From: an uncultured Spirochaetota bacterium
GTDB taxonomy: Bacteria > Spirochaetota > Spirochaetia > Treponematales > Rectinemataceae
Assembly (NCBI GenBank): GCA_903821875.1
Contig: CAIJMU010000153.1
Location: 1 to 43,638 of the forward strand
Reading direction: 5' to 3'
Length of the DNA stretch: 43,638 nucleotides
The position numbers were made by a program, and so were the translations under genes. The notes below the pieces were generated by a model, which was not told the DNA's origin, did no database searches, and worked only from the letters and a program-made list of their open reading frames with translations. Shown piece by piece: positions 4,173-41,641 of this stretch (the stretch's first letter is position 1; each line of letters opens with the position of its first letter).

Positions 4173-5228
4173 ATGGCGAAAACCATCAATAATCTCTGGG
4201 ATGACGTTATCGATTTCGAGAACCTGTATTTCGCCTACCGTGCGGCGGGCCACGGCAAGCGCTATCGCTACGAAGCGCTCCGGTTCGCGGAAGAGTTGGA
4301 AGAAAACCTCATCGGCCTTCAGAACGAACTCATCTGGGGCATGTACCAGCCGATGCCGTTCCGCCAATTCTACGTCCTGGACCCAAAGAAGCGCCTGATC
4401 TCCGCTCCCGCGTTCCGCGATCGTGTGGTGCATCATGCCGTGGTCCGGGTGATCGAGCCGGTCTATGAGAAGCGGTTCATTTCCGAGACCTTTGCATGCC
4501 GGAAGGGCCTCGGTACCCATGCGGCCATGAACCACGTACTCTGGTGCAGCCGCGTCGCGAAGCGGCGCTGGGGAAGCTACTATGTCCTGAAATGCGATGT
4601 GCGCAAATTCTTCCCGAGCGTCAACCACGAGATCATGAAACGGACAGTTCGCCGATCTATCTTCGACCGTGATGTCCTTTTCCTTCTCGACACGATCATC
4701 GACGCTTTCGAGCCCGGAGGGCGAGGGCTGCCGATCGGAGCCCTCACGAGCCAGCTCCTCGCGAACGTCTACCTAGATCCCCTTGACCACTACCTCAAGG
4801 AAGAGTGCCGGGTGAAGTTCTATGCCCGGTACATGGATGACTTCGTGATCCTTCACCATGACAAGAACTATCTTCGCGACCTCCTCGCCGAGATCGATTC
4901 CTTCCTTCATGACCGTCTCGACATGACGCTGAATCCCAAGACGGGCATCTTCCCTGGCCGGCACGGCATAGACTTCTGCGGGTACCGGATTTGGCCGACG
5001 CATATCAAGCCGAGGAAGACGACCGTGAGGCGGGCAAAGCGGCGGCTCCGGAAGTTCGCTTCCGTCTACCGCGATAGCCCGCAAATCCTGAAGCACGCGC
5101 GGGAAAGCATCCAGAGCTTCATCGGCTACATCCGATTCTGTTCGGGCTGGAGGACAACCGCCTCCGTGCTCGAACGGGCCACGTTCAAAGCATCTTCGGG
5201 CGTTGACGAAGGCGATGCACAGAATTAG
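4173..5228 (+). CDS. DGR reverse transcriptase
   Basis: 351 residues, group-II-intron-like RT. The catalytic YMDD is at about 220-223 and the first catalytic Asp is in KCDVRKFF (Asp 142). The GLPIGALTSQ motif (185-194) has the DGR-type form with Ser-Gln. The C-terminal part looks like the basic thumb (FCGYRIW, then a KPRKTTVRRAKRRLRK stretch). There is no endonuclease or maturase extension and the length is typical. It copies TR RNA with adenine-directed misincorporation, together with Avd. No clear ribosome site precedes the ATG. A terminator follows 35 bp after its stop. Confidence 0.95.
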   Translation: MAKTINNLWDDVIDFENLYFAYRAAGHGKRYRYEALRFAEELEENLIGLQNELIWGMYQPMPFRQFYVLDPKKRLISAPAFRDRVVHHAVVRVIEPVYEKRFISETFACRKGLGTHAAMNHVLWCSRVAKRRWGSYYVLKCDVRKFFPSVNHEIMKRTVRRSIFDRDVLFLLDTIIDAFEPGGRGLPIGALTSQLLANVYLDPLDHYLKEECRVKFYARYMDDFVILHHDKNYLRDLLAEIDSFLHDRLDMTLNPKTGIFPGRHGIDFCGYRIWPTHIKPRKTTVRRAKRRLRKFASVYRDSPQILKHARESIQSFIGYIRFCSGWRTTASVLERATFKASSGVDEGDAQN

Positions 5229-5263
5229 AATGGACGCATCAATCCGGCGTCGAATGGAGATTC

Positions 5264-5303
5264 GGGCCGCATACCCCTCGGGGCGTGCGGCCCTTTGTCT
5301 TTT
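5264..5303 (+). terminator. Rho-independent terminator after the DGR
   Basis: GGGCCGCA pairs with TGCGGCCC, with an inner CCCC/GGGG helix and a TCG loop, followed by TTTGTCTTTT. It closes the tail/DGR transcript and separates it from the lysis cassette. Confidence 0.85.
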
Positions 5304-5329
5304 CTGGGGATCACTGGGAGGGATGCTGA

Positions 5330-6109
5330 ATGGGCGGATTCTGGGAGCTCTTGGCTGCGCGAGATGTACTTGAGGTGGCCGGGATCGCTGTCATTTTTGT
5401 GGCGTCCACATGGGCTACCGTACTGGCGATCGTCTACTTGATCAGGAAAGCGCGAATCGTGAAGGTGTCCAAGGGCGGCGTGGATTTTTCGGGAAAAGAC
5501 ATCACCAGGAAGAAGACTCCGCATTCAACCTGCATCCATGGGAAAGACATCGTGATGGTATTGAAAAAACAGGCCGAAATGATAAACGCCATCCATGAGG
5601 CCAAGGCTTGCATCATTCCCGAACAAATGAAGTATGCCGAAGGGCGAGGCGCCGACCTCCAGGGCCTCATGCAGAAGAATTTCCTGCACCTCCTCGACGA
5701 GGAAATCGAAGCAGGGAACCTGGTTGACCTGAGCATTCTCGATCACGAGGACTACCGATCGTTCAAGCTTTGCCTGAAAGCCGTCTATTCCGACATCCTC
5801 GATTTCGTCCGGATAGCATTCCGCGAAAACCACTATTCCGAAAAAGATGAGAAAGAATTCCGCATCTACGTCGACAACAAGGTCAATGAGATCATCCAAA
5901 AGGCGACAGACGGGCTCAATGACATGTATCGCGGCCGGCTGATTCAGAGAAGCCGCGTGTACAAAGAAAACCAGCGCATCATTTCCGAGATTCGCGAAAT
6001 CCTCTCCGATGTCTTTTGGCAAGCGAGAGCTGTTGCCCATAAGGCAAAGGATGACTGCAAGAAGATAGAGAAGGATTTCGAGGATTACTTGGACGAAACG
6101 ATAGGATAG
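5330..6109 (+). CDS. Phage membrane-anchored protein of unknown function
   Basis: 259 residues. One strong hydrophobic helix near the N-terminus (about 15-38) is followed by a long, charged, mostly helical cytoplasmic-type region that ends in a coiled-coil-like stretch of Lys, Glu and Asp. It heads the lysis cassette, 19 bp before the endolysin gene. It could be a holin regulator, a superinfection-exclusion protein or another membrane-associated phage factor. I do not recognise a family. Confidence 0.6.
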   Translation: MGGFWELLAARDVLEVAGIAVIFVASTWATVLAIVYLIRKARIVKVSKGGVDFSGKDITRKKTPHSTCIHGKDIVMVLKKQAEMINAIHEAKACIIPEQMKYAEGRGADLQGLMQKNFLHLLDEEIEAGNLVDLSILDHEDYRSFKLCLKAVYSDILDFVRIAFRENHYSEKDEKEFRIYVDNKVNEIIQKATDGLNDMYRGRLIQRSRVYKENQRIISEIREILSDVFWQARAVAHKAKDDCKKIEKDFEDYLDETIG

Positions 6110-6128
6110 GGCTCCAAGGAGAAACGGG

Positions 6129-6794
6129 ATGGTCAGAATAAATCTGTCGGAAGGAAAGGACTACCACACCCAGCGGAACAACCGAACCGATCCCTTGGGG
6201 ACGTGCTCGACAACCTCGCTTGTCATGGCGCTCAAGGATTCGGGAATCGAGCTGCCCGATTGCGCGGGCCGACAAGAAGAGGACGTGCTCGCCGAGTTCA
6301 TCCTGAATAGCCCCGAAATCGCCGAAGCCTTCAAGCAGGACTACCCGAGCGAATTCGAGAAGGGGACCCATGCCTACGAAATACCCCCTCTCCGCAGCTT
6401 GGGGGTGAATTTGTGGCTCGGGCGCGAGGTCAATCGATTCTCGTGGGTGGCTGGCATTCAGGATGTCATCCTCTCGCTCATCATGGGCAAGGCCTGCGTC
6501 ATGTCGGGGATGTGGCCTTACAAGAACGCGCTCGGGGAACAAAGGGACATTTCGCATGTGGTCTGCGTCTGCGGTTTCGAGTCCGCCCAGGACAATGTGC
6601 TCGACGCGCGGGACCCGCGAGGGATCGCAATCGACCTCATGGTGTCCTTCATCATAGACGATCCCTATGGCGACTATCGGACGGGGTATCGCGACACGCG
6701 GGGCAACGACGTGATCGTGCCATTCAGGGACTTCATCCGGATCACGAAGGAACAAGGCTCGGTGAGCCGGAAATGGGTCAACTTCATCGTTTAG
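6129..6794 (+). CDS. C39-like cysteine peptidase, probable endolysin
   Basis: 221 residues with the layout of a papain-like C39 peptidase: Cys 26 in DPLGTCSTTSLVMAL, His 143 in DISHVVCVCGF, and an Asp-Pro pair in DDPYGDYRTGY near 177-179. There is no signal peptide or membrane segment. It lies between a membrane protein and a holin-like protein, with spanins downstream, so a cell-wall peptide-cutting endolysin is the best reading. C39-like proteins also process peptides, so the wall substrate is inferred from context. The next gene starts 10 bp after its stop behind a strong GGAGG. Confidence 0.68.
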   Translation: MVRINLSEGKDYHTQRNNRTDPLGTCSTTSLVMALKDSGIELPDCAGRQEEDVLAEFILNSPEIAEAFKQDYPSEFEKGTHAYEIPPLRSLGVNLWLGREVNRFSWVAGIQDVILSLIMGKACVMSGMWPYKNALGEQRDISHVVCVCGFESAQDNVLDARDPRGIAIDLMVSFIIDDPYGDYRTGYRDTRGNDVIVPFRDFIRITKEQGSVSRKWVNFIV

Positions 6795-29461: not shown

Positions 29462-29478
29462 CAAGTGTTAGCTTGATA

Positions 29479-29515
29479 GAAAGCCGTCCACGTTGGACGG
29501 CTTTCTTGTTTTTCT
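29479..29515 (+). terminator. Terminator of tRNA-Asn, possibly shared with the pilus locus
   Basis: A 12-bp perfect stem GAAAGCCGTCCA/TGGACGGCTTTC with a 3-nt loop, followed by TTGTTTTTCT. It also lies 37 bp after the stop of the converging tip gene and could stop transcription from that side less efficiently. Confidence 0.88.
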
Positions 29516-29541: not shown

Positions 29542-30483
29542 CTACGGGGCCGTAAGCGTCACGGTCAGGTTATCGGTGTAGGTACCGGATGAGAGATCGG
29601 CCCCCAGGGTCCCAATCGTTGCGGTGATGGCATACTTGGCCGGGACTGTCGTGTTGTTCTTGAGCGCTCCGCTTACGAGGGTGGTGCTCCCCGTTGTCAG
29701 GCTCTTTGTGTTCACTCCCTGCTTGAGGATATAGGGCACTGTATCGATTCCGTTGCTTAGGGCACCCTTATTCGGTGAAGTCAGGGCTAGGCTGTAGCTA
29801 ACATTGGAGCGGACGAGGATGTCCGCTCCAAGGGTCGCACCGGCGGTCAAGGTGCCGAAATCGAGGGGCTGGCTCGTGGTTGTTGCCGAAAAAGAGCCGC
29901 CCGTGGGCACCACCGAGACATCGTAGCTGTTGGGCACGGTGACGGCAATGAGCTGTGTTTTTGTTGAAGAGGTTCCGCCCAGGGTGGGGAAACTGTTGCA
30001 GCTCGGCCAGAGCTTTTCGGTAAGGGAAATCGTGTAGGCCCCGGGATTGGGAAAGGTCGAGTTGGCCAGGGCAATATCGAAGCTAAAGTTCTGGACGGCA
30101 CCATTGGCTGTTCCGCTCGGAAAGTTTCCAGAGAGTACCTGGGTCAAGGTGCTCGGGTTCGGGCCAATGAAGAGCTGGTTGACTGCGTAATTGGGTGCCC
30201 AGGCTGTGTAGTTGAGGGCTGGGTTCGCTGTAGGAGAGACCGAGGCTGCGGAGATGATGATACAGTAGCGTCGGCCGGCCCTATAGCTGGGACTCGAACT
30301 GAGGGTTGAATAGGTGACAGTGACATGGCAGGTAACCCATACGGTGGAATCGGCCGAATAGGTGACAGCCTGGGTGCTGTCGACTGTCCAGTTCAGGGTT
30401 GCCGCACCCAGCTCCGCCATGGACGACAGGAAAACGAGGCAGAGTGCCATTGCAGAAAGCGAAAACGTCGACCGAAATTTCAT
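29542..30483 (-). CDS. SCPU-type two-domain pilus tip protein (copy A)
   Basis: 313 residues. A signal peptide (about 1-28, ending AELGAA) is followed by two immunoglobulin-like halves. The C-terminal half has the spore-coat-U (SCPU) signature: QPLDFGTLTAGATLGADI in the middle and SSGTYTDNLTVTLTAP at the end. Two-domain SCPU proteins act as tip adhesins of archaic (sigma-type, Csu-like) chaperone-usher pili. Its ATG overlaps the usher stop by 4 bp. A close paralogue lies at 33832-34773. The adhesin role is inferred from family and gene order; the ligand is unknown. Confidence 0.83.
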   Translation of the reverse strand: MKFRSTFSLSAMALCLVFLSSMAELGAATLNWTVDSTQAVTYSADSTVWVTCHVTVTYSTLSSSPSYRAGRRYCIIISAASVSPTANPALNYTAWAPNYAVNQLFIGPNPSTLTQVLSGNFPSGTANGAVQNFSFDIALANSTFPNPGAYTISLTEKLWPSCNSFPTLGGTSSTKTQLIAVTVPNSYDVSVVPTGGSFSATTTSQPLDFGTLTAGATLGADILVRSNVSYSLALTSPNKGALSNGIDTVPYILKQGVNTKSLTTGSTTLVSGALKNNTTVPAKYAITATIGTLGADLSSGTYTDNLTVTLTAP

Positions 30484-32891
30484 GACCTATCTCCATCTGC
30501 TGCGATCTTTTTCGCGATTATTGTACCGAGATCGAAAACAGACCCCGGACCGCCTTCAGGTACCGTAATGTGACTTTCGTAGCCGCCTCCCCACCGGATC
30601 ACCATGGATCCAGCGGGGATACCGAAAAACTCAAAGAAGCCCTTTTCGTCGGAAAAGCTGGCCCCGAAATTGCGAGTCGCATCCTTGTCATCAGAGAGGT
30701 CGCCTACCTGGTTGGCCAGGGGCTTGCCTTTTTCATCAAGGAGAATTCCCCTCACCGAGACTGCCGAGGCCATCTTTACCCGCACTATGGCAACCGAGCG
30801 ATAGCTCGGACTGATTTCGAGTGAGAGGGGCTCAGGCCGCATGTCCGGAGAACTGGAAGGCATTTCTACGCTGGCCACAAAGGGCTGGTAGGGGACCAGG
30901 CCGGAAATGACAGCGGTCATGCCCCCGGTACTCTGGGCTCCAGAGCCGAAAGCAGGCCTGACTTCCACCGGCTGGCCCCGGAGGTTGGGGCCTGGCACCA
31001 GGAGGGCAAGGGCGCTCGAGGAAGCTCCTGTCAACCCGAAATACCCGTCGGCAAAGACGAGGGAGCTCGTCAGGCCCAGGCTTCCATGGATAGTTCCCTT
31101 GGCGGTCGGGCTCGGCGGACTGATGGAGACAAGGCCAGAGAGCCCAGCGAGATTGCCGCGGCCGTTTGCGCTCGTGCTGATCTGCGTTTCTCCCAGACCG
31201 CCCACGAGATTCTGGGCCTGCAGCGTGGCGGAGCCGTTCTCGCCCAGGCCAAAGCCCAGATTGACGGAATCGGAGCCGGTGAGGATGTTTCGCTGGTAGG
31301 TCAGGCCCCGCCTGTCGCTCGGTGCGACAACGAGCAATATCGATGCTTGAGGACTGCCACCGCCCGCGAGAGTCCAGCTGTAGCCTCCCGTTATGCTGAC
31401 AGCCGTTGAAGAAGCCAGGGGCAGGCTGTAGCCGAGGCTCAGCGACCAGGCGGAGAGCGAGGCAAGGCTATAGGATCCCGCGCTTACCTCGCCGTTCAGA
31501 GAAAAGCTTCCCAGACCAGCAGGCAGGCTCTGGCCGAACTGGGCAGAGAGGTCGATGCTTCGGGCGGATCGGGTAGTTGCAGTCCCGAAAGCAGAAAAGC
31601 CAGGACCCTTGTAGTCGAGGGCCAGGCCAAGTCGGGGGATGTAGGTCGAAAAAAAGGATGAGAACCGCCAGAAGGCCCGAAAGGCATAGGTAGCCTTTGA
31701 AACATTGAGGTAGGTGGCAGGATTGGCGGCCAGATCCCCCGAAAGGCCGAAGGTCCCGAGGGGAGTCGCGGCGATCGCCAAAGCGCCACCCATGAAGATT
31801 GAGGTATCTGCATGGGCGTCAAGCCCGAGCATGAAGTTGGGCAGGACTCCATAGGCCAGGTGGCCCGAGGCCAGGGGCTTTAAATAGTCATCCCTCAAGG
31901 TGCCGGCGGCAAAGGAGTAGTCCCAGAGTCCCGGCCCGATGATTTCCTGATCGAAGGGTATGCCGAGCACGACACGCCGCGGTTTGTAGCCGTTTTCGGC
32001 TATTTCCAGGACTACCTCGTTCAGGCCTGTTCCCAAGGCCAGGTCTGAGAGGTGGTAGCTGCCCGTTGGCAGCGTGACCTGGCGGGTAAGGATGCCATCG
32101 ACGTAGACCTTGACCTTGGCTCGGGACATGATTTGAAATGCGCTGTGAACCGTGCCGTAGGGCGTGAGCGAACCCGGCATGCCATCCTGCCTGCCCAGGG
32201 CAAGGCCGAATAGCTGGTGGCCCGGCTGGAATGAGATTGGATTGATTGAAACCATTCCGGCCTTGAGGCTAAAGCCACCGGAGGGAAAATCGTAGACCAG
32301 GTTAGCCGAGTTCCACTCCATCGAAGAACCCAGCGGGTTGATGAACGCAGATCCATCCCCCTCCAGGACGAGTCCGAGAAAATAGAGGGCGGGAGAAACA
32401 TGGCCCATCGCCGACCAGTCCATCTTTCCATCCCAGGTCGCCGTGGGATCTATCGCAGCGCTAAAGCCAACTGTGGCTGAAAAGGGGGAGTTTGCGAAGC
32501 GTGCCTGACCGTGCTGGACAGAAGCAGCTTCGCGGGCGCGCAGAACAACGGGCTGTATGATGGATGGCGAAAGCCTGGCCGACAGGATCAATGATGCGCT
32601 GTCGTAGCTGATCTGGACACCGAAGGAAGACCACTCTCCAATTGTCAGAAGGTGATCGTCGGATGAAAGTTTTTTGAATAAACCTGGTGTAAGCAGGTCT
32701 CTGAGACTTTCTGCCAGCAGGCTCGTGGAGATAAACACAGCACCATCGCTCCCTACTATGAACTCAAGCGACCCGTAAGGCTCTCCATCCACGACGAGGT
32801 CGGCTAACGCTTGCTCGGTTGTGCCCTGTGCGCCGACTTCAATGGAGGCCAGAATGACCACCAAGGCTGCAACGGCGCGCAGTCGTCCCAT
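30480..32891 (-). CDS. Outer-membrane pilus usher
   Basis: 803 residues from the ATG at 32891 (AGGAGG eight bases upstream); the longer open frame includes leader sequence. A signal peptide ends near VGAQG. Then come an N-terminal domain (LADLVVDGEPYGSLEF), a long run of amphipathic beta strands, and a plug-domain segment (VKVYVDGILTRQVTLPTGSY and LALGTGLNEVVLEI, about residue 260-310). C-terminal beta domains follow (VRGILLDEKGKPL, FFEFFGIPAGSMVIRW). The usher forms the outer-membrane pore for pilin secretion and assembly. It is the only intact usher here; remains of a second one lie at 34774-35133. Confidence 0.88.
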   Translation of the reverse strand: MGRLRAVAALVVILASIEVGAQGTTEQALADLVVDGEPYGSLEFIVGSDGAVFISTSLLAESLRDLLTPGLFKKLSSDDHLLTIGEWSSFGVQISYDSASLILSARLSPSIIQPVVLRAREAASVQHGQARFANSPFSATVGFSAAIDPTATWDGKMDWSAMGHVSPALYFLGLVLEGDGSAFINPLGSSMEWNSANLVYDFPSGGFSLKAGMVSINPISFQPGHQLFGLALGRQDGMPGSLTPYGTVHSAFQIMSRAKVKVYVDGILTRQVTLPTGSYHLSDLALGTGLNEVVLEIAENGYKPRRVVLGIPFDQEIIGPGLWDYSFAAGTLRDDYLKPLASGHLAYGVLPNFMLGLDAHADTSIFMGGALAIAATPLGTFGLSGDLAANPATYLNVSKATYAFRAFWRFSSFFSTYIPRLGLALDYKGPGFSAFGTATTRSARSIDLSAQFGQSLPAGLGSFSLNGEVSAGSYSLASLSAWSLSLGYSLPLASSTAVSITGGYSWTLAGGGSPQASILLVVAPSDRRGLTYQRNILTGSDSVNLGFGLGENGSATLQAQNLVGGLGETQISTSANGRGNLAGLSGLVSISPPSPTAKGTIHGSLGLTSSLVFADGYFGLTGASSSALALLVPGPNLRGQPVEVRPAFGSGAQSTGGMTAVISGLVPYQPFVASVEMPSSSPDMRPEPLSLEISPSYRSVAIVRVKMASAVSVRGILLDEKGKPLANQVGDLSDDKDATRNFGASFSDEKGFFEFFGIPAGSMVIRWGGGYESHITVPEGGPGSVFDLGTIIAKKIAADGDRS

Positions 32892-33062: not shown

Positions 33063-33533
33063 TCAGGGAGCAGTGATGGTAAAGGTTATCGTGTCGGAGT
33101 AGGTGTCGGCTGGAAGCTGGCGGTCGGTGGGAGGATCTGTGCTGATGAATACCGCCATCGCGGCTTCGGAGGAACTTTTCTTGCCGTCGCTCGAAAAGAA
33201 TACCCCATCCTTATCCAGAGTCTTGTTGTTGATCGTCAGGCTGTAGGGAATATTGTCCTGTGCTCCACTCAGGCGCCACTGGCTGGAAACGGAGAGCGAA
33301 AATGCCTGGTTGTCATTGGCGAAGGCTGTCAGAGTAGCAATTTGCTGCTTCTTGAGGGGGCTTTCCAAGGCGAGGCTTGTATTGCCTGAACCACTGACCG
33401 CGACGGAAACCGATCGGGAAATCGTACCTCTCACCACGAGTGTGGCAGTGGCTGCGTTCGCTGCGAGCAAGGGAATGCTTGCCACAATGGACATGCATCC
33501 AAGCACCACAAGGTGCTTTCGACCCACTCTCAT
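33063..33533 (-). CDS. Pilin-like subunit A1
   Basis: 156 residues from the ATG at 33533, which has GGAGG six bases upstream. A signal peptide (about 1-26, ending LLAANA) is followed by a single Ig-like beta domain that ends ADTYSDTITFTITAP, like other subunits of this locus. The middle (FSLSVSSQWRLSGAQD and IPYSLTINNK) is nearly identical to the subunit at 35956-36426, so they are paralogues of equal length. It is driven by the sigma54 promoter at 33646-33662 with a ~100-nt leader and is followed by the usher. Confidence 0.8.
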   Translation of the reverse strand: MRVGRKHLVVLGCMSIVASIPLLAANAATATLVVRGTISRSVSVAVSGSGNTSLALESPLKKQQIATLTAFANDNQAFSLSVSSQWRLSGAQDNIPYSLTINNKTLDKDGVFFSSDGKKSSSEAAMAVFISTDPPTDRQLPADTYSDTITFTITAP

Positions 33534-33645
33534 TTCCGACCTCCGGACTTGTTTCAATGTACCCACATTGATGAATTGGCCACGTCTACGCTCGGCCAGG
33601 AAGCCTTCTTTGCTTTGTATCGCACAACTCTTGCAAATCCTATGA

Positions 33646-33662
33646 AGCACATTCCGTGCCAA
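33646..33662 (-). promoter_or_regulatory. Sigma54 promoter P1 (pilin A1-usher-tip unit)
   Basis: On the minus strand: TTGGCACGGAATGTGCTT. GG and GC are exactly 10 bp apart and the -24 box is perfect. The predicted start is near 33635. The same 16-bp core occurs at P3 (37820-37837). A conserved palindrome lies upstream, centred near -151. Confidence 0.9.
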
Positions 33663-33777
33663 AGTCCCTGAGTAATATAAGTTTTATTGCAAACTGCTTC
33701 TAGGTAAAGAATTGACCATCTTTCTGGAATTCTGTTTCTGTCTCGGCACTGTGTGGCAACCCATTCGGTCGAATCAT

Positions 33778-33795
33778 TTCGCCTAAATGGGCGAA
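33778..33795. promoter_or_regulatory. Activator site UAS1 for P1
   Basis: TTCGCCTAAATGGGCGAA, within a longer palindrome CATTTCGCC-N6-GGCGAAATG (33775-33798). It matches UAS2 and UAS3 and lies about 150 bp upstream of the P1 start, as expected for an NtrC-type activator. Confidence 0.82.
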
Positions 33796-33831
33796 ATGCC
33801 GTGCGAGTTGCATCCCGCAGTCGAGCCTAAC

Positions 33832-34773
33832 CTAGGGAGAGGTAAGTGTGATGGTCAGGGTGTCGGTGTAGGTCCCGGATGAGAGATTGCTTGGCAAGGT
33901 TCCGATAGTAGCGGTTATGGGATACTTGGTCTGGGGAGGTACCTTAGTGTTGTTTTTAGCTGCACGGCTTGCGAGGGTGGTGCTCCCCGTTGCCAGGCTC
34001 TTGGTGGTCACTCCCAACTTGAGGATATAGGGCACCGTGTCGACTCCATTGCTCATGACGCCCTTGTTTGGTGAAGTCAGGGCAAGACTGTAACCTACAT
34101 TGGAGCGAACGAGGATGTCCGCACCGAGGGTCGTTCCGCTGGCCAGTGTGCCAAAATCGAGGGGCTGGCTCGTGGTCGTTGTCAAAAATGCGCCGCCTGT
34201 CGGTACCACTGAAACATCATAGCTGTTGGGCACGATGACAGAGATACTTTGAGTTTTCGTTGAAGGGGTTCCCCCCAGGGTGGGAAAACTGTTGCAGCTT
34301 GGGTAGAGTTTTTCAGTGAGTGAAACCGTGTATGTCCTGGGATTCGGGAAGGTCGAGTTGGCAAGGACAAAATCGAAGGAATATGACTGGACCGTGCCAG
34401 TGGCTGTGTTGCTCGGAAAGGAGCCAGAGAGCACCTGGGTCAGGGTACTGGGTGTTGCGCCAATATTGAGCTGGTTTACTCCCATAGTGGGCGCCCAGGC
34501 TGAGTAGCTCAAGGCTGGGGTAGTGGTGGGAGAGACTGTGGCAGCTGAAATGATGATACAATAACGATTTCCGGCTGTGTAGGTGGTTCCTGTACTTTTG
34601 TACGTGACATTGACATGGCAGGCGACGAGGGATGTGGAATCCGGCGAATAGGTGACCGACCGGGTGGTATCGATAGTCCAGGTCAGGGAGGCTGCGCTGA
34701 GTTCCGCCATGGAGGTCAGAAGCACGAGACAGACCATCGTGACCGAAAGCGAGCATCTCGAGCGAGGCTTCAT
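33832..34773 (-). CDS. SCPU-type two-domain pilus tip protein (copy B)
   Basis: 313 residues, closely similar to the protein at 29542-30483 over its whole length (for example RYCIIISAA, PSTLTQVLSG, SCNSFPTLGG, and SQPLDFGTL followed by LGADILVRSNV). Signal peptide about 1-28. It follows the usher remnant with the same ATGA overlap that the intact tip gene has with its usher. Differences are concentrated in the first half, which should hold the ligand-binding face of a tip adhesin. It probably depends on the remaining usher for export. It may be read from P2. Confidence 0.83.
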   Translation of the reverse strand: MKPRSRCSLSVTMVCLVLLTSMAELSAASLTWTIDTTRSVTYSPDSTSLVACHVNVTYKSTGTTYTAGNRYCIIISAATVSPTTTPALSYSAWAPTMGVNQLNIGATPSTLTQVLSGSFPSNTATGTVQSYSFDFVLANSTFPNPRTYTVSLTEKLYPSCNSFPTLGGTPSTKTQSISVIVPNSYDVSVVPTGGAFLTTTTSQPLDFGTLASGTTLGADILVRSNVGYSLALTSPNKGVMSNGVDTVPYILKLGVTTKSLATGSTTLASRAAKNNTKVPPQTKYPITATIGTLPSNLSSGTYTDTLTITLTSP

Positions 34774-35133
34774 GATCCATCTCCATCAGCCGCGTTTTTT
34801 GCGGCTATCGTACCGAATTCGAAGACGCACCTAAGCCCGTCTTCCGGTACTGTTACAGCTTTCGTAGCCACCCCCCTTCAGCGGATTATCATGGTGATAG
34901 CAGATCGGGCGGGCCCTAGTGCCACCAACCCTTATGTTAAATTTAGCGCGACACAGGCTTGAATACCAGGCGGTGATGGGTGCTAATTACCGTTCCCACC
35001 AATAAATTTGACCGACCTGTAGGGGATGTCCATCCACTACGAGGTCGGCCACAGCTTGCTCGGTTCTGTCCCCGGCACCAATGACAAAGGTGGCCATAAC
35101 GGCCACCTTTGTTGCGACGGAGTGCAGGAGCAC
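34774..35133 (-). pseudogene. Remnant of a second usher gene with a large internal deletion
   Basis: The 5' end survives as a 48-residue frame (35133-34987) with signal peptide and TEQAVADLVVDGHP, matching TEQALADLVVDGEP of the intact usher. The 3' end survives at about 34774-34893: read on the minus strand it gives VTVPEDG, FGTIAAKNAADGDGS, matching the last ~38 usher residues, but with a TGA and a frameshift (MIIR then stop). About 2.2 kb in between is missing, and ~110 bp of unmatched sequence joins the ends. The stop still overlaps the following tip gene as ATGA. This shows that the subunit-usher-tip block was once duplicated. Confidence 0.85.
35085..35111 (-). other. 11-bp perfect hairpin after pilin B2
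   Basis: CAAAGGTGGCC/GGCCACCTTTG with a 5-nt loop, 41 bp downstream of the pilin stop at 35152. It overlaps the signal-peptide part of the usher remnant. No T-run follows on the minus strand. It could protect the pilin mRNA 3' end or weaken read-through into tip copy B. Confidence 0.6.
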
Positions 35134-35151
35134 TAGGATTGCTGCTTGCTC

Positions 35152-35667
35152 CTACTTTCCTGCGATCGTGATCGTCAGTGTGTCGCTGTAACTATCGGCA
35201 TTGAGGATGGTGCTAGCACCAAAGACTATCGATAGGTCTTTGCTTGTTCCACCTGCTACGGATTTTCCGCCCGTACCAGTCTCAGTAAGTGTAACGGTAC
35301 CCGTCGGAGTGATAGCTACTCCGTTGTATATAAAGGTATAGGGTACTGAATCTCCACCGCTAGCAACGGACTGAAAGGCCTGAACCAGCTTATAGCCGTT
35401 GATGCTTGTGACCTTTACAGTGTAACCCGCCTTGACGTTTGAGAGTTCAACCAGTGAGGCGATCTTGAGGCCAGCAGCCCCAGTACCGGCAAGGATCGGA
35501 AGACTTGTTGTGTTGGCTGTGTCGGGAGTTATTGTTAAATTAATGACCTGCGCGACGGTCCCGGAAAGGGCCAGATCACCAGAGGTCCCAGCAAAGCTTG
35601 GCACACAGGCTGCAAAGATCACCAGAACAACAAGGGCAATTCGGGAAGAAAGGGTAGTTGACTTCAT
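35152..35667 (-). CDS. Pilin-like subunit B2
   Basis: 171 residues with a signal peptide (about 1-26, ending PSFA). One Ig-like beta domain ends NADSYSDTLTITIAGK. It resembles the subunit at 37238-37774 more than the other two: both share GTVAQ/GHVTP-type first strands, GTGGKSVAGGT/GTSGKSSGGGT and LNADxYxDTL. GGAGGTATTCA precedes the ATG. It has its own strong sigma54 promoter (P2), which suggests that it is an abundant shaft subunit. Confidence 0.8.
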   Translation of the reverse strand: MKSTTLSSRIALVVLVIFAACVPSFAGTSGDLALSGTVAQVINLTITPDTANTTSLPILAGTGAAGLKIASLVELSNVKAGYTVKVTSINGYKLVQAFQSVASGGDSVPYTFIYNGVAITPTGTVTLTETGTGGKSVAGGTSKDLSIVFGASTILNADSYSDTLTITIAGK

Positions 35668-35712
35668 TGAATACCTCCATAACAGATCGACTTCTAGTAA
35701 CTACAAATATAG

Positions 35713-35730
35713 TTGCAAGTAATGTGCCAA
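35713..35730 (-). promoter_or_regulatory. Sigma54 promoter P2 (pilin B2)
   Basis: On the minus strand: TTGGCACATTACTTGCAA, matching both -24 (TGGCAC) and -12 (TTGCA) boxes, with GG and GC exactly 10 bp apart. The predicted start is near 35703, 36 bp before the ATG. Confidence 0.92.
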
Positions 35731-35821
35731 AAAACCAAATATGGAGAAAGAAATATAACTCTATATAATATAACCATATATTTCCAGGGTTTGTAGAAAA
35801 TCTGTCCGCAGTTGCCAGTTC

Positions 35822-35839
35822 TTCGCCCGAACGGGCGAA
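35822..35839. promoter_or_regulatory. Activator site UAS2 for P2
   Basis: TTCGCCCGAACGGGCGAA, palindromic except for its central 4 bases, extended to 20 bp by flanking C/G. It is centred about 127 bp upstream of the P2 start. Confidence 0.85.
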
Positions 35840-35955
35840 GATCCTCGACGTTCAGGGCGAGGGCATGCAGGGATTAGTGGACAGGATCAGTCTGATTGGG
35901 GGGATGACGTGGGACAGACGGCGCCTTTATGGCTGGCGATCTGCCTGCGGTCGCA

Positions 35956-36426
35956 TTAAAGGGCGGTGATGGTAAAGATTATCGTGTCGGAATAGCTGTC
36001 AGTAGTAATCAGGCGGTCGCTGGCCGGATCTGTGCTGATAAGGACGGCCATCGAGGTTCCCGAGTAGCCAATCGTGCCGTCGTTCGTAAAGAATGTCCCA
36101 TCCTTGTCAAAGGATTTGTTGTTGATTGTCAAGCTGTAGGGGATGATGTCCTGGGCTCCGCTCAGTCGCCATTGGCTGGAAACGGAGAGGGAAAAGCGGC
36201 GGTCGCAATTTGAGCGGGCTGTCAGGGTCGCGATGTGAACTTTCTTGGCAGCGCTTTCGACTACTGCGCTTGAATTGATAGAACGGCTGGCGGTAAGCGA
36301 AATGGATTGGGGCACAGTTCCACTGACCACCAAGGTGGCAGAGGCCGTGTTTGCCGCGGCCAAGGGAAACCATGCCAAAACGGATATAACTGAAAGCGCT
36401 ACAAGGCGCTTTCGATAGGCTTTCAC
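35956..36426 (-). CDS. Pilin-like subunit B1
   Basis: 156 residues if started at the GTG at 36426 (GTGGAG five bases upstream); a GTG at 36438 is also possible. The chosen start gives exactly the length and N-terminal pattern of its paralogue at 33063-33533. Signal peptide ends near AAANTAS. The domain contains FSLSVSSQWRLSGAQD and IPYSLTINNK and ends TDSYSDTIIFTITAL. It has no sigma54 promoter of its own and follows the chaperone by 77 bp, so it is probably read from P3. Confidence 0.78.
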   Translation of the reverse strand: MKAYRKRLVALSVISVLAWFPLAAANTASATLVVSGTVPQSISLTASRSINSSAVVESAAKKVHIATLTARSNCDRRFSLSVSSQWRLSGAQDIIPYSLTINNKSFDKDGTFFTNDGTIGYSGTSMAVLISTDPASDRLITTDSYSDTIIFTITAL

Positions 36427-36503
36427 CGCGAACTCCACTGTCCAAAGCGAGAGAAGATGTGAGTGTATGTATTATTGTACGAAACAGGGGGGTGGTCAAG
36501 GGC

Positions 36504-37223
36504 TTAATAGACCGATTCGAACTCCAGGGTCGAGTCGTAGGGCTGTCCCTCGACGGCCCCTTCCTTCAGGATAAACAGACTCCGGGAACGGCCAGGGAGA
36601 TAGTTAGTCCCGGCAAGGGTTCCGAGTTCAGCCTCTCCCAGGACAATCTGTGCGCTACCGATTGTGACCTTAGGATTGCCGAGGACGACATGACGACTCC
36701 CCGAATTCGCGATCTCGACTAAAAAGCCGCTGGCTTTTTCAGCGTTCATCGCCCCGACTACCTTCACCTTCACCGAAGGAGCGAATGAGGAGCCGCCGAC
36801 ATAGAGAGATGCTATGTATTTAAACATGATCTTGATTCCTGAGCCCTGAGCTCCGGTATCGAGGGGTACCTGCTCGGCGACAAAACGGAAGCAGCGTTCG
36901 GCATCGAGTTTGGCTGGCCCCTTCCATTGAACCTTGACGGCAGCCTGGCCATTGGGCTCGACGACCACCCGGGCCGGATAGACAAGGAAAAGGGCGTCGG
37001 CAGGAGTGTTTACCTCGCTGCCGTCAACTTGCATATCCCTCGTCATGACGCGGAACCTGATGGCAACCCGGCTCTGCCCGTCTCCCTTGACCCGGAATGT
37101 AACAACGCTGCCCGCCCCGGAGGGGGCGAGCAGCGTCATGATCGGCTCAAGGGTGAAGGCATGCGCGCCTCCGACAGCGGCCACAAGGGCCACACTCATC
37201 GCCAAGGCGCGCAGCTTGTTCAT
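36504..37223 (-). CDS. Periplasmic pilus chaperone (PapD-like)
   Basis: 239 residues from the ATG at 37223 (AGGAG eight bases upstream). A signal peptide ends GGAHA. The first Ig domain has the G1 donor strand pattern VYPARVVVEPNGQAAVKVQW, followed by an interdomain link and a second beta domain ending QPYDSTLEFESVY. Such chaperones complete the fold of pilin subunits by donor-strand complementation and deliver them to the usher. It is the only chaperone gene here, so it should serve both subunit sets. Confidence 0.85.
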   Translation of the reverse strand: MNKLRALAMSVALVAAVGGAHAFTLEPIMTLLAPSGAGSVVTFRVKGDGQSRVAIRFRVMTRDMQVDGSEVNTPADALFLVYPARVVVEPNGQAAVKVQWKGPAKLDAERCFRFVAEQVPLDTGAQGSGIKIMFKYIASLYVGGSSFAPSVKVKVVGAMNAEKASGFLVEIANSGSRHVVLGNPKVTIGSAQIVLGEAELGTLAGTNYLPGRSRSLFILKEGAVEGQPYDSTLEFESVY

Positions 37224-37237
37224 CAAGTCAACTCCTG

Positions 37238-37774
37238 TCAGGTACCTGTGATCGTGAACACCAACGTATCATTGTAAGTATCGGCATTAAGCGTGTCACT
37301 ATTTGTAGGGGGTAGAAAAGAGATGTAAAGTACCTTTGCAGTGCCTCCGCCTGAACTCTTTCCGCTGGTTCCCGTCTGTGCGGTCAGGGTCGCCTCTCCG
37401 GTTGTTGGAAGCGTAACTGGGTTTTTTGTTCCACCGACCGTGCCATAATAGAGCGTATAGGCCCAAGATTCAGTACCGCTGCCGCTAGTCGTCTGACCCA
37501 GCTTCCATCCTCTAGTGCTCCCCAATGTTACAGCGTAGCCACCTTTGTAATTGGAAAACTCCGTCACATTGGCTATGGCTACCTTATCGGCACCCTGCAT
37601 GATGTCGAGGTCAAGACCAGGAATATAGGTAGCTGTAATGGAAATAGACGGTGTTACATGGCCCACTACGGTAATAGTAGCGGTATCGGGATTGGCCGCA
37701 AACACCGGCACAAACGCCGCGATCAGGAAAAGGGCGACTATTGCAATACGTCTAGTTGTTCTGCTGGAATTCAT
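37238..37774 (-). CDS. Pilin-like subunit B0 (first gene of the locus)
   Basis: 178 residues from the ATG at 37774, which has GGAGG upstream; longer readings include promoter sequence. Signal peptide about 1-28 (ending VFAA). The Ig-like domain has GTSGKSSGGGT and ends LNADTYNDTLVFTITGT. Nearest relative here is the subunit at 35152-35667. It is read from P3 and followed 14 bp later by the chaperone, so it is a likely major shaft subunit. Confidence 0.8.
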   Translation of the reverse strand: MNSSRTTRRIAIVALFLIAAFVPVFAANPDTATITVVGHVTPSISITATYIPGLDLDIMQGADKVAIANVTEFSNYKGGYAVTLGSTRGWKLGQTTSGSGTESWAYTLYYGTVGGTKNPVTLPTTGEATLTAQTGTSGKSSGGGTAKVLYISFLPPTNSDTLNADTYNDTLVFTITGT

Positions 37775-37819
37775 TGAATCCTCCTTGCCCAGGATCGCTG
37801 GGCATCTATGATTCATATG

Positions 37820-37837
37820 TTGCACATTCCGTGCCAA
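37820..37837 (-). promoter_or_regulatory. Sigma54 promoter P3 (pilin B0-chaperone-pilin B1)
   Basis: On the minus strand: TTGGCACGGAATGTGCAA. GG and GC are 10 bp apart, and the core is identical to P1. The predicted start is near 37810, 36 bp before the ATG at 37774. Confidence 0.9.
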
Positions 37838-37949
37838 GGTCGGTATTTTTCGGAGCTATTTATTATTCGTATTGCGATAGTGAATTACGAGGCCAGTGGA
37901 AACTCTGTCTCGGCTGAGCTGCTGAAAAGCCGTCCAATCAGTCGATGTG

Positions 37950-37967
37950 TTCGCCCAAACGGGCGAC
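37950..37967. promoter_or_regulatory. Activator site UAS3 for P3
   Basis: TTCGCCCAAACGGGCGAC, one base short of a full match to the other two sites. It lies 6 bp past the stop of the regulator gene and is centred about 148 bp upstream of the P3 start. Confidence 0.82.
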
Positions 37968-37972
37968 AGCTT

Positions 37973-39364
37973 TCATGGAGCATCCTTACCGCTTTCTTCT
38001 TTCGCCCCCGCAAGACGGCTCTGGCAGGAGCGGAGGTGGCGCTCGGTGATTCCGAGCTCCCGGGCTGCAGCGCTCCGGTTGCCGCTGGAGCGCTGGAGGG
38101 CCTGTTCGATGATAGTGCTTTCAAAGTCGTGCATGGCCGTCTTGTAGTCGGAGGCCGGGGGTGGCGCGTTGGTGGTGGCGGAGTCGGCTTCCCCTGTCAT
38201 GGTGAGTGGCAGGTCCTGGACGCGGATGAACTCTCCCCGGCAGAGGACAATGGCTCGTTCGATGGCGTTTTCAAGCTCGCGCACATTGCCGGGAAAGGAA
38301 TGCTGGAAGAGCCGGTCGAGGGCCTCGCGGGTGATGCCCTTCACATTCTTTCCATCCCTGCCTGAATAGGTCGCTATGAAGTGGTCCACGAGGAAGCGGA
38401 TGTCTTCCTTCCTCGATCTAAGCGGCGAAATGTTGATCTCGATGACATTGAGGCGATAGTAGAGGTCCCGGCGGAAGCTGTTTTCTTCGACCATCCGGGC
38501 CAGGTTCTTGTTGGTGGCAGAGATGATGCGCACATCGAGGTTTCTCGTCCGGTTTTCCCCGATCCGCTGGATCTGCCCGAACTGGAGGACACGAAGCAGT
38601 TTTACCTGGAGCATGGCGGAGATTTCCCCTATCTCGTCGAGAAAGAGGGTTCCGTGATCGGCTTCTTCGAAGCGCCCGATTCGGTCGCTGCTCGCGTCGG
38701 TAAAGGCGCCCTTGCTGTGCCCGAAGAGCTCGCTCTCGATGAGGGATTCCGACAGGGCCGAGATGCTGACGGCAACGAAGGCACCGCTGCGGCCGCTGCG
38801 CTCGTGGATGAATCGAGCCACGAGTTCCTTGCCTGTGCCGCTCTCTCCCATGAGAAGGACGGTCGCTGAACTCAGTGCGGCGCGCGCTGCGATGCTCAGG
38901 GCCTCCGCCATGGCCTCGCTCTTGTAGACGATGCCGACAACCACCTGTGAGGAGGCTGGCCCATCGGTTGGAGGGAGGAGGGATTCGCGCTGGAGGGCGA
39001 GCTTTTCGTTGATGCGGAGGATGATCCGCTCGATTGCGTCGATCTTGGTCGGTTTGACGAGGTAGTCGTCGGCTCCTCCCTTGAGAAGCCGGACTGCCTC
39101 GCCCGTGTCAGCGTAGGAGGTCATGATGACTACGGCGATTACGGGACTGAGCTCCTTCATCTTGGCCAGGACATCGAAACCAGTACCGTCAGGGAGGTAG
39201 AGGTCGCTGAGTACGAGGTCGACCACCTGCTCCGAGGCGATCTTGATGCCCTCCGCAACGGACATGGCGGACAGATATTCTATTTTTGGGTAGTCGAAGG
39301 TGGCGACAAAGGTCTTGAGCAGCTCGATCTGAGTTTGGTCGTCATCGATGGCCAAGATCGTCAA
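37973..39364 (-). CDS. NtrC-family sigma54 response regulator of the pilus locus
   Basis: 463 residues: receiver (Asp 54 in LSDLYLPDG), AAA+ domain with GESGTGKE, the sigma54 loop in the variant form GAFTDA, a FLDEIGEI Walker B, and a C-terminal Fis-type helix-turn-helix (NRSAAARELGITERHL). It lies directly upstream of the pilus genes on the same strand and next to UAS3. It is the natural candidate to bind the three TTCGCC-type palindromes. Its kinase partner is probably the hybrid kinase encoded 219 bp upstream. Confidence 0.9.
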   Translation of the reverse strand: MTILAIDDDQTQIELLKTFVATFDYPKIEYLSAMSVAEGIKIASEQVVDLVLSDLYLPDGTGFDVLAKMKELSPVIAVVIMTSYADTGEAVRLLKGGADDYLVKPTKIDAIERIILRINEKLALQRESLLPPTDGPASSQVVVGIVYKSEAMAEALSIAARAALSSATVLLMGESGTGKELVARFIHERSGRSGAFVAVSISALSESLIESELFGHSKGAFTDASSDRIGRFEEADHGTLFLDEIGEISAMLQVKLLRVLQFGQIQRIGENRTRNLDVRIISATNKNLARMVEENSFRRDLYYRLNVIEINISPLRSRKEDIRFLVDHFIATYSGRDGKNVKGITREALDRLFQHSFPGNVRELENAIERAIVLCRGEFIRVQDLPLTMTGEADSATTNAPPPASDYKTAMHDFESTIIEQALQRSSGNRSAAARELGITERHLRSCQSRLAGAKEESGKDAP

Positions 39365-39583: not shown

Positions 39584-41641
39584 TCAGGTCCCTGGCAGGC
39601 TTTCCAAGGCCTGGCGCAGGATGGCCCGTGCCTTGTCGTAATTGAACGATTCTATCTCCTGGTAGAGGGTGCTGGCCCCTGGTCCGAAGGCGCGACGGTA
39701 GAGCCGGTGGTCTTCCTGGTAGGCCTGGACCGCCGCAAGGTCGTTCCCGGCGAGCAGGGCGTCGAGGCGCGCCGCCTTGGCCGCGATGCTGGACCTGTCC
39801 TCGGGGGAGATGGAGGTGCGAAGCCCCGCTGCCTCTGGCAGCTGTCCTGTGGGCGCTGCTACCCCGCCATCCCTGATGAAGTCGACTCCGGGTCCGGCCA
39901 CAGGCACAGGGGCTGTATTGATATGTGGCCCGATATCTGGCCCTGCATCGCGGCAGGCCTGGGCTTCCCCTGTCCGAGGTTCTGCGGAATGCTCTCCGAG
40001 CGCGCCCTGGATGCTGCTGCGGAGGCGCGAGCGGGTCAGTGGCTTTTCGAGGGAGACGCTGTAGCCCGACTCGGCGAGAGTACTCCTCATGACAGTGCCC
40101 TTGTAGGGGGTGATGAGGATCGCCTGGGGCCGATGGGCAATCGGCAAGGCGCAGAGCCGCTTTCCGAGCTCGAGGCCGTCGATCCCGGGCATGCGCAGGT
40201 CCGTGAGGAGGAGGTCGAAGGGGCATCCCGCGGCATCGGCTTCCTGGAGACGGGCAAGGGCGGCGGCAGAGTCCGGAGCCGAGCCGACCTCGAAGCCAAG
40301 GCCTTCGAGCATGCCTACAATCACGACCCTGGCTGCCTCGAGGTCATCGACCACAAAGGCGCGAAAGCCTGCCATACCCCTGACTTCCGGCTCGGTTGGC
40401 GTCACTCTGCGGGCTGTCCCGAAGGGCGCTTCGATCCAGAAGGTGCTTCCCTTTCCGAGCTCGCTTGTTGCCCCGATCTTCCCTCCCATCAACTCGATCA
40501 GGCGCCGTGAGATCGCGAGTCCAAGCCCCATGCCGCCGTATTTTCGCGTCGTCGAACCGTCTGCCTGCTCGAAGGGGAGAAAGAGGCGGAGCTTTTGCTC
40601 GCCGGAAATCCCGATACCCCCGTCGGAAACCTCGAAGCGGAGGAGATGGCCGTTTCCATCGGAGGAAAGCAGGCGCGCGCGGAGCACGATGCTCCCGGCC
40701 TCGCTGAACTTGACTGCGTTGTTGATGAGATTGAGGAGGACCTTCTGGAGCCTGATGCCGTCCCCGTGGATGAGGGTGGGGAGGGCAGGTGAATCCATGA
40801 TGATTTCCAGGCCCTTCGACTCTGCCCTGCTTGCGATGAGGTTACAGATGTCCTCCAGCATGCGCTCGACCTCGAAATCGGTTTCCTGGAGCTGGAGCTT
40901 CCCTGACTCTATCTTGGTCAGGTCCATGATGTCGTTGAGGAGGTCCATGAGGTGCTGGGCCGCCGTGTCGATCTTTGCGAGCTGCATGCGCTGGTGCATG
41001 TCGGTGATGTCCCGCTGGACAAGGTGGGCGAGGCCGATTATCGCGTTCATGGGGGTCCGGATCTCGTGGCTCATGTTCCCGAGAAAGCTGCTCTTGGCGC
41101 GGTTGGCGGATTCGGCTTCCTCCCTGGCCCGCGTGAGTTCTTCCTCCTTCGCCGCCAGGGCAGTTACATCCCTGGCCTGCACGAGGATGCCGTCATGGTT
41201 GCCGTCGCCATCCCTGAACAACTGCCGCGTGAAGGACATCCGACGCTGGCTGCCGTCCTGGAGCGTCACCAGGATCTCCTCGTCTCGGGGCAGTTCGTCC
41301 CCGGCGAGAAGCCTCGTCCGTGCCTCGTTCTCGCGGGCGGCTGACGCGGGGATGAGGATCTCCTCTGCACGCTTCCCGATGTATTCGCTGACGCCAGGCC
41401 TGAAGTTGCCCGCAATGTAGCTGCGGCTCGCCGCAAGGTAGCTGCCATCGCGGTCCATGAGCGCAATCCAGTCGACGGCCGAATCCAGGATGCGCGCAAA
41501 ATCGCGGCCGAGCGCAGCGGCCCCGTCTCCGGCGGCCGCAGCACAAGGCTCCTGCGGAACCCTCCCTGCAATCGGTTTCACGCGGACGACTCTCAGCTCC
41601 GGAGCAGGGCGACTGCAGTGACCAGGAGTGCGAGCGCCCAT
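39584..41641 (-). CDS. Cytoplasmic hybrid histidine kinase (PAS-HisKA-ATPase-REC)
   Basis: Up to 685 residues. A PAS-type sensor (about 45-160) leads into a short coiled coil, HisKA with His 192 (MSHEIRTPMNAIIG) and an ATPase domain (NLINNAVKF, GMGLGLAISRRL). A receiver follows with Asp 481 (LLTDLRMPG), then a ~110-residue C-terminal helical region that could be a degenerate phosphotransfer domain. There is no membrane segment, so it senses an intracellular signal. The ATG at 41641 overlaps uppP by 49 bp; a GTG at 41581 is an alternative start. It is likely to feed the regulator at 37973-39364. Confidence 0.87.
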   Translation of the reverse strand: MGARTPGHCSRPAPELRVVRVKPIAGRVPQEPCAAAAGDGAAALGRDFARILDSAVDWIALMDRDGSYLAASRSYIAGNFRPGVSEYIGKRAEEILIPASAARENEARTRLLAGDELPRDEEILVTLQDGSQRRMSFTRQLFRDGDGNHDGILVQARDVTALAAKEEELTRAREEAESANRAKSSFLGNMSHEIRTPMNAIIGLAHLVQRDITDMHQRMQLAKIDTAAQHLMDLLNDIMDLTKIESGKLQLQETDFEVERMLEDICNLIASRAESKGLEIIMDSPALPTLIHGDGIRLQKVLLNLINNAVKFSEAGSIVLRARLLSSDGNGHLLRFEVSDGGIGISGEQKLRLFLPFEQADGSTTRKYGGMGLGLAISRRLIELMGGKIGATSELGKGSTFWIEAPFGTARRVTPTEPEVRGMAGFRAFVVDDLEAARVVIVGMLEGLGFEVGSAPDSAAALARLQEADAAGCPFDLLLTDLRMPGIDGLELGKRLCALPIAHRPQAILITPYKGTVMRSTLAESGYSVSLEKPLTRSRLRSSIQGALGEHSAEPRTGEAQACRDAGPDIGPHINTAPVPVAGPGVDFIRDGGVAAPTGQLPEAAGLRTSISPEDRSSIAAKAARLDALLAGNDLAAVQAYQEDHRLYRRAFGPGASTLYQEIESFNYDKARAILRQALESLPGT

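Follow-up and report, generated by a model that had tools for sequence, protein, structure and literature searches.

The DNA analyzed here (the window) is a 43,638-nucleotide contig, CAIJMU010000153.1, of an uncultured Spirochaetota bacterium. It carries a cluster of eight chaperone-usher pilus genes beside genes for an NtrC-type response regulator and a hybrid sensor histidine kinase, together with three predicted sigma54 promoters that each have palindromic DNA upstream. We consider it very probable that the locus is a sigma54 regulon for the pilus, with a two-component switch controlling all eight pilus genes. The three promoters have the arrangement GG-N10-GC and resemble the consensus TGGCAC-N5-TTGC:

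37822-37836, minus strand: P3, predicted sigma54 promoter, TGGCACGGAATGTGC; 9/10 match to TGGCAC-N5-TTGC; predicted start near 37810
35715-35729, minus strand: P2, predicted sigma54 promoter, TGGCACATTACTTGC; 10/10 match to the same consensus; predicted start near 35703
33647-33661, minus strand: P1, predicted sigma54 promoter, TGGCACGGAATGTGC; 9/10 match to the same consensus; predicted start near 33635

The initial annotation of this DNA had placed sigma54 promoters with a TGGCAC box at these three positions, and all of them are present. It had also named the absence of rpoN as fatal to the idea; the genome encodes a full-length RpoN (PF04552, E=8e-54, 475-residue frame) with a Q-rich N-terminal region and a C-terminal ARRTVAKYR box.

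Upstream of every promoter lie two dyads of the form TTCG(A/C)C-N6-G(G/T)CGAA, 21-22 base pairs (bp) apart and centered at about -128 and -149, which make up the tandem operators UAS1 to UAS3:

37950-37967, minus strand: UAS3 distal dyad, GTCGCCCGTTTGGGCGAA; centre about -148; outermost base mismatched
37929-37946, minus strand: UAS3 proximal degenerate dyad, ATCGACTGATTGGACGGC; centre about -127
35844-35861, minus strand: UAS2 distal dyad, CTCGCCCTGAACGTCGAG; centre about -149; the second (weaker) site
35822-35839, minus strand: UAS2 proximal palindrome, perfect at the arms, TTCGCCCGTTCGGGCGAA; centre about -127
33778-33795, minus strand: UAS1 distal palindrome, perfect at the arms, TTCGCCCATTTAGGCGAA; centre about -151
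33756-33773, minus strand: UAS1 proximal degenerate dyad, TTCGACCGAATGGGTTGC; centre about -129

The 18-bp palindrome described earlier at each promoter is present at all three as placed, and it is only half of the operator, namely the stronger member of each tandem pair; because this stronger dyad is distal at P1 and P3 and proximal at P2, the palindromes had appeared scattered over 127-151 bp. Paired upstream dyads on one face of the DNA, as in an NtrC-type enhancer, are found 19-22 bp apart in the 11 operator-promoter units assembled from this and other genomes (see below). A stretch resembling GACAGA-N-TTYC also lies between operator and promoter in all three regions (33730-33750, 35791-35806 and 37899-37915, minus strand).

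Chance is a poor account of these sites. With at most one mismatch, TTCGCC-N6-GGCGAA occurs three times in the window against 0.21 expected, and the pairing of such a site with a sigma54 box of at least 9/10, located 60-140 bp downstream, also occurs three times; not even one such pair appears in any of 200 dinucleotide shuffles. The initial annotation had proposed scanning the whole genome for the palindrome, with random scatter counting against it, and our scans of the source genome were made by pattern matching only. The 17-mer core TTCGCCNNNNNGGGCGA has about seven further exact occurrences across the genome, and around the two most symmetric of them, C166 and C176, no sigma54 site reaching 9/10 lies within 400 bp; the joint pattern GGCGA-N90-120-TGGCAC-N6-TGC occurs five times in the 4.68-Mb genome, three times at P1-P3 and once each on C38 and C73, and its reversed control once. 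Since copies of the core lie elsewhere without a sigma54 site, the palindrome alone is not diagnostic, and it is the combination of palindrome and promoter that is. The possibility that the palindromes are copied DNA was considered and rejected, as self-comparison reveals no DNA repeat at the promoter regions, where only the motifs align.

The genes that follow the promoters are those of the pilus cluster:

37238-37774, minus strand: pilin A, with a signal peptide and an immunoglobulin (Ig)-like pilin fold (AlphaFold2 pLDDT 77.6)
36504-37226, minus strand: PapD-like pilus chaperone, PF00345 (PapD_N) E=2.4e-5, above the curated cut-off
35956-36438, minus strand: pilin B, paralogue of pilin D (73% DNA identity)
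35152-35667, minus strand: pilin C, 44% identical to pilin A
33832-34773, minus strand: large pilin or tip-like protein, copy 2, paralogue of 29542-30483 (75% DNA identity)
33063-33533, minus strand: pilin D, with an ATG start downstream of P1
30480-32891, minus strand: outer-membrane usher, identified by family
29542-30483, minus strand: large pilin or tip-like protein, copy 1, paralogue of copy 2

The earlier identification of a chaperone-usher pilus is supported by the chaperone, by the usher family and by Ig-like, donor-strand-type pilins. The window usher alone scores below the Pfam cut-off; in its family, 9/11 members match PF00577 and the family profile matches FimD (E=5.5e-5). No Pfam family was matched by the window pilins, and the best Foldseek matches of the pilin A model are CfaB, Caf1, SafA, FimF and Csu pilins, with TM scores of only 0.4-0.5. 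The predicted usher structure was of poor quality (pLDDT 52) and was excluded from the fold search, and searches of solved structures with small chaperone, usher and pilin profiles returned nothing useful. The listed open reading frame of pilin D starts at 33662, upstream of the predicted transcript start. The cluster also records a duplication of its pilin-usher-tip cassette (29552-30607 with 33842-34894; 33070-33522 with 35963-36415), of which the second usher has been mostly deleted, leaving 5' and 3' remnants (35023-35127 and 34773-34895) between pilin C and the tip-like gene. The pilus cluster is bounded by a strong terminator-like hairpin (29478-29506), which separates its end from a topoisomerase gene. 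The named relatives among the nearest usher-bearing loci are Spirochaetota or Spirochaetaceae, in agreement with the spirochaete origin that had been guessed from the sequence.

Beside UAS3 are the two regulatory genes:

37973-39364, minus strand: NtrC-type response regulator; Pfam receiver, sigma54-activation AAA+ (Sigma54_activat) and Fis-type helix-turn-helix (HTH_8) domains
39584-41641, minus strand: hybrid sensor histidine kinase; Pfam PAS, HisKA, HATPase_c and C-terminal receiver domains; NCBIfam hybrid-kinase matches

The Pfam domains bear out the NtrC-type regulator gene reported next to UAS3, and the two do adjoin, the regulator stop codon ending at 37973, 5 bases from UAS3 rather than the 6 bp given before. 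The regulator Walker motifs are conserved in alignment with its orthologues. From its adjacency, the hybrid kinase is the likely partner of the regulator.

The strongest evidence comes from other genomes. We looked for regulator orthologues across 344 genomes of the order. Seven genomes besides the source (G001, G015, G269, G048, G040, G084 and G090) have the tandem operator with a sigma54 box beside such an orthologue. In G001 and G015, of the same family, the regulator stands beside a pilin-chaperone-usher cluster with the operator-promoter unit, of which G015 has two. In G048, G040 and G084 the unit is flanked by the regulator and a divergent gene; in G048 the latter encodes a giant Ig-domain protein (Big_7, Big_13) whose start is common to the products in G040 and G084; in G269 the gene at the unit encodes an SdrD_B-domain surface protein. 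The two units of G090 emerged from a blind pattern scan of 294 genomes and were not used to set the pattern; one lies directly downstream of a truncated regulator orthologue, and the two are followed by sigma54 boxes and Ig-like surface proteins. At three mismatches that scan gave many chance matches, and the reversed control had matches too, though in fewer genomes; only matches with 0-1 mismatch or those adjoining a regulator were used. Across the 11 units (22 sites), G4, C6 and G13 are invariant (22/22) and position 5 is A or C, and the proximal dyad is centered at -127 to -133 in seven units and at -148 to -151 in three. Among chaperone-usher loci, the unit is present in 3/3 with the regulator and in 0/15 related loci without it. 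In G015 (L040), a second regulator-linked sigma54 promoter (7014) precedes a CHASE-PAS-GGDEF gene (4623-6566, minus strand), which suggests a link to cyclic-di-GMP.

This conservation bears on two other explanations of the dyads. One holds that the palindromes are terminators or 3'-end hairpins of the upstream mRNAs, at an incidental distance from the promoters: each does follow a stop codon, that of UAS3 by 5 bp, and good RNA folds are predicted for two of them (z -2.2 and -3.5). However, none has a U-tract or is called a terminator, UAS3 folds no better than shuffled sequences (z -0.13), the tandem element of G048, G040, G084 and G269 lies upstream of a divergent regulator gene and ends no gene, and conservation extends to both the spacing from the sigma54 box and the 21-bp interval within the tandem; we regard a hairpin role as highly unlikely. 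The other accepts the sigma54 promoters as real and assigns the dyads to another of the roughly 15 sigma54 activators of the genome, which has at least 15 matches to this type of protein, and the adjacent regulator is tied to the dyads by co-occurrence. Against this stand the operator, which tracks the regulator orthologues over several genera and is missing where related pilus loci lack the regulator, and the recognition helices: that of the window regulator is GITERHLRS, with ER(H/R)LRSR shared by its orthologues, whereas the readable paralogues in the same genome differ (e.g. AEATLYRKL, RKTLYQKL). Binding by a different activator is thus, in our judgment, a minor possibility. Since the operator-promoter unit is conserved with the regulator in other genomes, the regulon itself is strongly supported.

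Several observations weigh against this assignment. The second dyads have per-site chances of 0.21 (UAS3), 0.06 (UAS1) and 0.003 (UAS2), those of UAS3 and UAS1 being weak taken singly; individually modest, they therefore draw their weight from conservation. Tuning of the operator consensus drew in part on the window, G001 and G015. No such operator is seen in the examined stretches of eight regulator orthologues from a fourth family (f5), and those with a readable helix (among L041, L043 and L070-L074) share the recognition helix. Finally, the sigma54-contact loop of the window regulator reads GAFTDA, where aligned orthologues have GAFTGA or GSFTGA, and single changes to GAFTGA usually lower activity (PMC3162934). 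In L041 and L043, of family f5, a glycosyltransferase-like gene follows the regulator.

The loop raises the further possibility that, once on the dyads, the regulator represses transcription or activates it independently of sigma54, given that several homologues, TyrR and DhaR among them, lose sigma54 activation when GAFTGA is altered (PMC3162934). Strong sigma54 boxes are nonetheless kept at all three promoters, and the orthologues with GAFTGA use the same layout. FlgR of Epsilonproteobacteria naturally carries an aspartate here (PMC3162934), and the identical substitution, G266D, leaves NorR active, constitutive and free of repression (PMC2941729); with these precedents, GAFTDA does not exclude sigma54 activation, and a sigma54-independent or repressor role appears very improbable. 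Speculatively, GAFTDA may loosen control of the switch.

We propose the following scheme for the sigma54 regulon, in which the steps from binding onward are adopted because they are established for NtrC-type activators. On receiving a signal, the hybrid histidine kinase (39584-41641) probably phosphorylates the NtrC-type regulator (37973-39364), which would bind as two dimers to the tandem dyads, about 21 bp or two helical turns apart at about -128/-149. DNA looping would then bring the GAFTDA loop into contact with sigma54-RNA polymerase, and the ATPase would open the promoter. P3 would drive pilin A, the chaperone and pilin B; P2, pilin C and a tip-like protein; and P1, pilin D, the usher and the other tip-like protein. 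With three transcription units, as gene order suggests, all eight pilus genes would come under one signal.

Together, the conserved units uphold the earlier proposal that promoter, enhancer and activator form a pilus regulon at this locus; the tandem dyads, the GAFTDA loop, the hybrid kinase and the non-pilus targets of the orthologues had been overlooked. We lean toward the broader view that the regulator-operator pair has been re-deployed across Spirochaetota families as a surface-structure switch, acting on pili or on giant Ig-like or SdrD_B-like proteins, and that GAFTDA in this bacterium may alter how strict the off state is.

The mechanism is canonical; what is new is its target, its wiring, its conservation and its re-use on different surface structures. 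The window regulator shares with NtrC, AtoC and ZraR the receiver-AAA+-Fis architecture, dyads of NtrC geometry more than 100 bp upstream and a -24/-12 promoter, and its best NCBIfam matches are AtoC and ZraR, at scores far below the equivalog cut-offs; it differs in its own operator, TTCG(A/C)C-N6-G(G/T)CGAA with 21-bp tandem spacing, and in targeting pili and surface proteins. It has the GAFTDA loop of FlgR from Campylobacter and other Epsilonproteobacteria (PMC3162934) and, unlike FlgR, an HTH domain and operators. Within the spirochaetes, Rrp2-RpoN of Borrelia burgdorferi is likewise a two-component sigma54 activator tied to surface lipoproteins (PMC4014564); Rrp2 works via rpoS, whereas here the tandem operators lie directly on surface-structure genes. 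The pilus resembles the Caf1, CFA/I, Fim and Csu systems in its PapD-like chaperone, usher family and donor-strand-type pilin fold, and differs from them in its divergent usher and pilins and its three predicted sigma54 transcription units. The initial annotation held that sigma54 control of chaperone-usher pili in a likely spirochaete was not known to have been described, and the literature that we searched, which took in a minority of the subscription papers, likewise contains no description of chaperone-usher pili driven by sigma54 or of this kind of control in spirochaetes.

The locus offers a testable set of operator, promoter and activator for chaperone-usher pili, in which sigma54 is rarely part of the known control, and does so for the spirochaetes, in which such pili are hardly described. 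The operator motif is predictive and could reveal further members of the regulon, and the findings support the view that sigma54 is chiefly a regulator of the cell exterior (PMC3162934).
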